A DNA stretch of 43,905 nt from assembly GCA_022567475.1 (NCBI GenBank), contig JADFGZ010000002.1, positions 1 through 43,905 of the forward strand, given 5' to 3'. The translations under genes and the position numbers were made by a program. The notes beneath the pieces were generated by a model. That model ran no database searches, had not been told where the DNA came from, and saw nothing but the letters and a program-made list of their open reading frames with translations. This document shows, one piece after another, positions 14,116 to 15,971 of this stretch. The stretch's first letter is position 1; each line of letters opens with the position of its first letter. The DNA is from Acidobacteriota bacterium (GTDB lineage: Bacteria > Acidobacteriota > Terriglobia > 2-12-FULL-54-10).

Positions 14116-14145
14116 TTGACGCCTTCACCGGGCGGCCACTATAAT
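14116..14145 (+). promoter_or_regulatory. Sigma70-like promoter for lysS
   Basis: TTGACG-N18-TATAAT. Confidence 0.6.
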
Positions 14146-14280
14146 CTGGTTTTTCAAACCAATCCGCTGTTTCCACCGGGCCTCCATTGCAAGCACACAA
14201 ACTGCAAGGGCAGGCCAGCACAGAGGGAGCCGCTTCCGAGCCTCTCCCACCAGCAGGAAAACACCGGCAAGGAAATAATG

Positions 14281-14417
14281 GGAAGTGGGTCAGTTTCCGT
14301 TCGGCACGGCGTCACAGGATTTGTCAGGGCACGGTTATGACGGAGCCCCCAGCGCGCCGCTGTCAGCGTGCTGGGGTGTCTTGAACCGTTCCCTGACGTT
14401 GAAACTGACCCACTACC
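14281..14417. mobile_element. MITE-like non-autonomous palindromic element (137 bp)
   Basis: TIRs GGAAGTGGGTCAGTTTC / GGTAGTGGGTCAGTTTC (16/17); 8-bp direct duplication AAATAATG at 14273-14280 and 14418-14425; nested inverted repeats 14323-14336/14384-14397 and 14347-14357/14366-14376. Confidence 0.85.
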
Positions 14418-14432
14418 AAATAATGGTGCAGC

Positions 14433-15971
14433 TTGTCCTTTGACCTCGAGCTTTTCGAACAACGCCGCCAGAAGCTGCAACAGATTGAAGCTTTGGGCCA
14501 CGAGGCCTATCCCCACCGTTTTGCCTACACCCACACCCTGGAGCAGATCACCGCTGCCTATTCGGAAAAGACCGCCGAAGAGTTGACGAGCGAGAAACCC
14601 TCGGTGCGCATCTGCGGGCGAATGCAATCCATCCGCGGACACGGCAAGGCCGGCTTCGCCGACTTGGTCCAGGGCGGCCAGCGGCTGCAAATCTACGTTC
14701 GCAAGGATGCGCTGGGCGACAACGGCTTTGCGCTCTACCGGCTGCTGGACCTGGGGGACTTGGTCGGCGCAGAGGGTTATTTGTTTCGCACCAAAACCGG
14801 GGAACTCTCTCTCCACGCTACCACCGTGTCGCTGCTGGCCAAGGCGATGCTGCCCCTGCCGGAAAAATGGCACGGGCTGCAGGACGTAGAGGCACGCTAC
14901 CGCCAGCGCTATCTGGACCTGATTGCCAACCCGGAGGTGCGGCGCGTTTTTGCAGCACGGAGCCGTCTGGTGCGGGCGTTGCGGGAAGCCCTGGAGCGGC
15001 GCGGCTACATGGAGGTGGAGACGCCCATGATGCAGCCGATGGCCGGCGGAGCCACGGCGCATCCCTTCCGCACCCATCACAACGCCTTGAACCTGGACCT
15101 CTACCTGCGCATCGCGCCGGAGCTTTATTTGAAGCGCCTGGTGGTGGGAGGCTTCGACCGCGTCTATGAAATCAACCGGAACTTCCGCAATGAAGGAATC
15201 TCCACGCAGCACAACCCGGAGTTCACCATGCTGGAGTTCTATCAGGCCTACAGCGACTACAACGACCTGATGGAGATGACCGAGAAACTGCTGCCGGAGG
15301 TGGCCGAGGCGACCTGCGGGACGACCACCCTCAGCTACGGCGAGCACACCATCGACCTGTCGCGATTCTCCCGTTTCACCCTGCGGGAGGCCATCCGGGA
15401 GTTCTGGCCGGAAGAATCATCCCGGCCAACTCTGGAAGACTTCTCCGACCCGCAGCGGACCGGTGCGGCCATCGAGGCATGGAACCGTCTGCAAGGAGAG
15501 CATGACCGCCTCGTCATTCCGGCGGGCACATCGCAGGGGGCCACGCTGGCGCATCTGTTTGAAACCGTCTGCGAGCGAAAGCTGATCCAGCCGACGCTGA
15601 TCTATGAATTCCCCGTGGAGGTTTCGCCGCTCGCCAAAAGCAAGAAGGATGAGCCGGGATGGGTGGAGCGCTTTGAGCTCTTCGTGGCGGGGATGGAGAT
15701 CGCCAACGCCTACAGCGAGCTGAACGATCCGGAGGAGCAGCGGCGGCGCTTTGAATTGCAGGCCGCGCTGAAAGAGAAGGGCGACCGGGAAGCCCATGTA
15801 ATGGATGAAGACTACATCCGCTGCCTCAGCTACGGCATGCCGCCCACGGCCGGGGAAGGAATCGGGATCGACCGCCTGGTGATGATCCTGACCGGCTCCC
15901 GCTCCATCCGCGACGTGATCCTGTTCCCTTTGTTGCGACCCGAAAGCTCGCCGGCTCCGGCGGCGGAGTGA
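14433..15971 (+). CDS. lysS: Class II lysyl-tRNA synthetase (TTG start as given by the ORF)
   Basis: [65 protein letters not shown]. Confidence 0.95.

Follow-up and report, generated by a model that had tools for sequence, protein, structure and literature searches.

The lysS Leader and the Inserted Element

The window (the whole 43,905-nucleotide stretch analyzed here, contig JADFGZ010000002.1 of an Acidobacteriota metagenome-assembled genome, or MAG, of 4.17 Mb in 432 contigs, 83% complete) carries lysS, the gene for lysyl-tRNA synthetase, at 14433–15971 on the + strand, with a TTG start at 14433, as taken from the list of open reading frames (ORFs) and from orthologues in six relatives that are 66–78% identical. 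Upstream lies a sigma-70-like promoter, TTGACG-18-TATAAT (14116–14145, + strand; 11/12 match, 0.1 expected), and four relatives have these hexamers ahead of lysS, with the −10 box alone in a fifth. Between this promoter and the start codon is an insertion that parts a Shine-Dalgarno-like AAGGA (14269–14273, + strand, from the sequence and a scan for anti-SD pairing) from lysS.

The inserted element is 137 bp long (14281–14417) and is flanked on both sides by AAATAATG (14273–14280 and 14418–14425, no strand assigned), an exact 8-bp direct repeat, such that the span of 14273–14425 given in the first-pass annotation comprises the element and both target duplications. Its terminal inverted repeats, GGAAGTGGGTCAGTTTC (14281–14297, + strand) and the reverse complement of GAAACTGACCCACTACC (14401–14417), agree at 16 of 17 positions; the right repeat reads GGTAGTGGGTCAGTTTC on the − strand. 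Two further inverted pairs are nested inside, one of 14 bp (GTCAGGGCACGGTT and AACCGTTCCCTGAC) and the other an 11-bp hairpin (CCCCAGCGCGC and GCGTGCTGGGG), each with one mismatch, and the ORF list and translations hold no transposase ORF within the 137 bp. All of these features had been listed in the first-pass annotation, and all are confirmed here. The RNA strand of the element folds to −75.1 kcal mol–1, compared to −49.0 ± 3.8 kcal mol–1 for dinucleotide shuffles (z = −6.9). Positions 14281–14417 are a real miniature inverted-repeat transposable element (MITE), and the pattern is far beyond chance.

Copies in the Same Genome and across the Phylum

An assembly search of the window genome gave 27 matches to the ends or core of the element, with the same ends present in at least 12 more full or partial copies; the exact 31-base left-end pattern had no match in a collection of genome contigs. 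When the nine two-ended copies are aligned, the left 42 bp (the left outer module, 14281–14322 on the + strand in the window) and the right 17–20 bp are constant, while the center is variable. Each well-preserved copy has its own, different 8-bp duplication: those on contigs C174, C360 and C288 are perfect (TCCGAATT, GGAAAAGC and TGCCGAAC), the flank pair GACTTTTC/GATTTTTC is likewise seen, and a second copy on C174 matches at 7/8 positions, with the remaining copies having decayed flanks and several imperfect duplications. The first-pass annotation had suggested looking for further copies, taking a complete lack of them, together with relatives sharing the leader and no empty-site allele, as a refutation; many were found in this genome and in the class, and the recurrence of the ends with duplications of their own supports its reading of a non-autonomous transposable element in the lysS leader.

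Among related genomes, the end pattern GTAGTGGGTCAGTTTC (≤2 mismatches) is commoner than its reversed control in all genomes of the family except G001. Of 299 genomes in the class, 68 contain the exact 19-mer GGTAGTGGGTCAGTTTSAA, the family consensus of the terminal repeat, and the reversed control has zero matches there; elsewhere in the phylum, it is present in 9 of the 264 genomes taken from the other classes. Almost every record with the inner core of the element is an Acidobacteria/Terriglobia MAG, which assigns the organism to Acidobacteriota. Pairing of ends first gave a set of 54 end-pairs, of which 32 have 8-bp flanks matching at ≥7/8 positions, a level reached in only 0.035% of 2862 control comparisons between mismatched flanks. 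A larger census across the phylum, in which elements were chosen for flanks matching at ≥7/8 (the number 54 in both sets is a coincidence), holds 54 distinct same-ended elements, 35 with an exact 8-bp duplication and in sizes of 67–347 bp (33 elements), 651–1544 bp (7) and 1852–3970 bp (14).

The Nested Interior

The 14-bp nested pair forms a palindrome, P (GTCAGGGCACGGTT..AACCGTGCCCTGAC), with its left arm at 14323–14336 and its right arm at 14384–14397 (both + strand), as defined from the sequence, a survey of P and the alignment of genomic copies. P is an independent Acidobacteriota repeat, widespread without the outer ends, just as the outer ends occur without P in elements of 68 bp. At one locus (L113), a pair of P copies encloses a 171-residue protein that scores 111 bits against the NCBIfam model for REP-associated tyrosine transposases, or RAYTs (REP_Tyr_transpos, cut-off 80). 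In total, four RAYT genes in three genera are bounded by inverted P (GTCAGGGCACGGTTTYAACCGTGCC) or close variants (L258, which is the L113 locus itself, L259, L260 and L264/L270). Judged by sequence, P is the palindrome of a RAYT element, because close RAYT homologues in three genera sit between inverted copies of it. The window genome itself gave no RAYT match. When a GTAG/CGTC tag was sought beside the palindrome, many P copies were found to start with CGTCAGGG and others with TTGTCAGGG. We also note a P–P pair with a RAYT remnant on G004:C62, and a contig labeled Verrucomicrobiia (L119; JAICXV010000331.1, 1791–1857 and 2094–2116) on which a 68-bp MITE and P are both present, reflecting either misbinning or transfer between phyla.

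Within the element at lysS, hairpin B (14337–14383, + strand) interrupts P, and 44 bp of it (14338–14381) match a third repeat at 98%; several free copies of this repeat are found in the genome. The nested inverted repeats reported in the first-pass annotation as part of the transposon signature are thus present, not as part of insertion sequence (IS) ends but as a captured RAYT-associated palindrome and a third-repeat fragment. The split P is common to three two-ended copies (the window, C360 and C174), each with a different duplication, and the splitting of P therefore presumably preceded their transposition. Elsewhere in the genome, the third repeat is a dispersed hairpin, GGGGTCCCCAGCGCGCCGCTGTCAGCGTGCTGGGGTGTCTC, often with the 3′ tag GGTCGCGGCTCGGATT (G000:C53, C363, C417, C329, C55 and C359).

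An IS1-like Parent Transposase

Twelve of the 14 long census elements (1852–3970 bp) bear a transposase alignable over at least 240 residues. A thirteenth transposase-bearing element, L210, is intact but lacks a duplication; it carries the GTTTCAA variant of the window's right end, and its ends are identical to the right terminal repeat of the window plus two inner bases. Two of these transposases were tested against profile models, scoring 31.3 and 33.2 bits with Pfam DDE_Tnp_IS1 (above the cut-off of 24.1) and 58.2 and 56.6 bits with NCBIfam IS1, where the equivalog cut-off of 100 bits is not reached, for which reason we call the family IS1-like, which is safer than IS1. On C372 of the window genome, a transposase remnant of 152 residues with 68% identity sits immediately within such an end; a search of this MAG (83% complete, 432 contigs) gave no intact transposase accompanied by the precise GTTTC end variant. 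The parent IS family, which the first-pass annotation had considered not determinable by eye, is IS1-like, as established through the transposase-bearing elements with the same ends.

IS1-family ends begin GGNNNTG. The ends of the present family fit this pattern, with the consensus GGTAGTG, and the 8-bp duplication lies within the 8–9 bp of the IS1 family. ISAba3, a member of that family, has the terminal repeat GGTGGTGTTTCAAAAAGTATGCTG and 8-bp duplications (PMC6382973), and is thus like the elements described here in its GGTRGTG end start and duplication length, with the Pfam domain above cut-off and the NCBIfam IS1 model matched weakly as further points of agreement with the family. In contrast to the IS1 family, the transposase here has about 280 residues, obtains 58 of the 100 bits needed for NCBIfam IS1, and is, in the elements found, always accompanied by at least 1 kb of other DNA.

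An IS21 parent, hinted at by GTGGGTCAGTTTC and a size of 2.5 kb, was ruled out since the transposase found is IS1-like. A local transposase on C18 was also rejected as the parent, as it has different ends (GGTGCTTCCGCAA) and adjoins a truncated MITE copy without evident duplication. This locus (L240, G000:C18, 1213–2490) is a second IS1-like element, and has probably been rearranged, as no 8-bp duplication is seen.

Proposed Origin and Alternative Explanations

Taking these observations together, we are highly confident that a non-autonomous mini-transposon (MITE) belonging to an IS1-like family has inserted between the lysS promoter and start codon. The ends, duplications, multiple copies, parent transposase class and nested parts are seen directly in the genomes, and they suggest that an IS1-like DDE transposase would act in trans on the consensus ends GGTAGTGGGTCAGTTTSAA, making 8-bp target duplications. 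An ancestral short MITE of this lineage may have carried the RAYT-associated palindrome at its center, which in one sub-family would then have been split by the 44-bp hairpin fragment of the third repeat. Copies would have transposed subsequently, one of them entering AAATAATG between the lysS promoter and start codon; the order of these nesting and transposition events is our reconstruction.

In agreement with an insertion, the ends of the element are absent from the 350 bp before lysS in all six relatives. The first-pass annotation had proposed finding the empty site in a close relative, and this comparison stands in part: the six family-level relatives lack the ends in their lysS leaders, while the exact empty-site allele, which would read GGCAAGGAAATAATGGTGCAGC, was not found in our collection, where no genome of the same genus was encountered. 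Only the absence of the ends is visible in the family-level relatives, because they are too diverged in the leader for an empty site to be demonstrated.

An extension of the MITE reading is that the insertion down-tunes or conditions the synthesis of LysRS, by moving the Shine-Dalgarno-like site and placing a hairpin 15 nt upstream of the start codon, which we consider rather unlikely. Counted from the −10 box as far as the TTG, the leader measures 287 nt, compared to 142 nt when the element and one duplication are subtracted and to 25–92 nt in relatives, AAGGA is displaced, and there is a precedent in Microcystis, where IS1-like insertions upstream of genes lower their expression (PMC11448079). 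However, the occupied and joined alleles fold in the same way around the start codon, and their pairing to the anti-SD no farther than 25 nt from the start is nearly equal (−5.2 kcal mol–1 for the occupied allele and −5.4 kcal mol–1 for the joined one), so that no effect on expression can be claimed from sequence alone. The longer leader, strong hairpin and displaced Shine-Dalgarno-like site would appear to be, at most, tolerated. A six-codon ORF (ATGGTGCAGCTTGTCCTTTGA, 14423–14443) runs across the lysS TTG start in another frame, and was kept despite the insertion because its ATG lies in the duplicated target.

Since the central palindrome is the same as the one that flanks RAYT genes, the whole element could instead be a RAYT/REPIN-type REP array moved by a tyrosine transposase rather than a MITE of a DDE transposase. 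However, target duplications are not expected of RAYT elements, given their IS200/IS605-type transposition, and the 8-bp duplications are precise here; moreover, the outer ends occur without P, both in the 68-bp elements and on IS1-like transposons, and P occurs without the outer ends, making this explanation highly improbable. There is similarly very little chance that the element is a structured regulatory RNA leader of lysS (a riboswitch, T-box-like leader or attenuator) that merely resembles a MITE, since, despite the strong hairpin directly 5′ of lysS and 3′ of its promoter, the element's sequence recurs at unrelated loci between different flanks, Rfam gives no matching family even at E ≤ 1, there is no terminator-like site, the lysS leaders of six relatives lack the element, and the exact 8-bp duplication would be left unexplained; a riboswitch or attenuator origin is refuted by the lack of an Rfam match and a terminator.

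Relation to Known Mobile Elements and Gene Cassettes

The MITE in the lysS leader resembles the bacterial MITEs RUP, NEMIS, Nezha and MITEAba12 in its size class of 70–300 bp, inverted ends and target duplications (PMC3733652, PMC10969869, PMC6382973), and also in having no coding capacity, an intergenic location and a fold as RNA. It differs from them in its IS1-like parent and in the captured RAYT palindrome and third-repeat fragment inside. REP/RAYT elements, including tyrosine transposases flanked by terminal inverted repeats, have already been reported in Acidobacteria (PMC3733652), and in three genera of the family, REP_Tyr_transpos genes are likewise enclosed by inverted copies of P; in the window, by contrast, P is a passenger within a DDE-type MITE.

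The lysS insertion is thus an ordinary MITE of modest interest, and it is the cassette behavior of its IS1-like family that is more interesting. Several related elements have the same ends and no full transposase, and carry genes: a 203-residue protein between exact duplications (L192, G141:C78, 1501–2172), an alpha/beta hydrolase (L303), a cupin (L055, duplication 6/8), an Mrr-type endonuclease with a PIN protein (L293), and a protein 27% identical to the proteasome-like passenger of L210 together with a second ORF (L209). With L327, these six elements have the IS1-like ends around complete genes, with most duplications matching at 7/8 or 8/8, and are candidate mobile gene cassettes in Acidobacteriota. 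Transposase-bearing copies also have passengers, namely, an SDH-type protease, a BRO-N protein and DUF5343.

Precedents in kind exist for mobile insertion cassettes and transporter ISs (ISsaga, PMC3129680; the qnrS2 cassette, PMC5444012). The former are matched here by same-ended relatives without transposase that carry whole genes (L192 and L303), and the latter by same-ended elements in which a transposase is accompanied by passengers. Unlike in these known systems, a single IS1-like family here spans MITE, cassette and passenger-bearing IS, while the window copy itself, unlike a mobile insertion cassette, carries no gene. A literature search covering few subscription journals found no paper describing this IS1-like family.

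It is conceivable, although we would place this at somewhat below even odds, that the family acts as a transposition platform distributed over Terriglobia as well as other Acidobacteriota, with a single 19-bp end pair that would move almost any interior, largely in trans, be it RAYT palindromes, hairpin repeats of other kinds, or cassettes of a single gene to which the end can contribute the final codons and the stop (Ser-Asn-TGA), akin to the interchangeable cassettes of integrons. The exact ends and duplication length are now given for an IS1-like family in a poorly studied phylum, and this one type of end delimits hairpins that are empty, repeats of foreign origin and cassettes with genes for hydrolase, cupin, restriction-type endonuclease, PIN and protease-like proteins, by which gene movement without a recognizable transposase becomes testable in Acidobacteriota. 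The MITE at lysS also advises caution, as strong leader hairpins, such as that at lysS, can be transposons instead of riboregulators.

Two minor observations concern the coding content near the ends. Read outward, the terminal repeat encodes ..Ser-Asn-TGA (L192, L199, L291, L294, L297, L330 and L332), so that the final codons and stop of cargo and transposase ORFs are often provided by the transposon end. Finally, a small basic passenger protein with the motif GG.KGG.ARA..LS...R..IA..AA.ARW and no Pfam match recurs in L212, L214 and L297, and the same protein adjoins an end in the window genome (L218, G000:C96).
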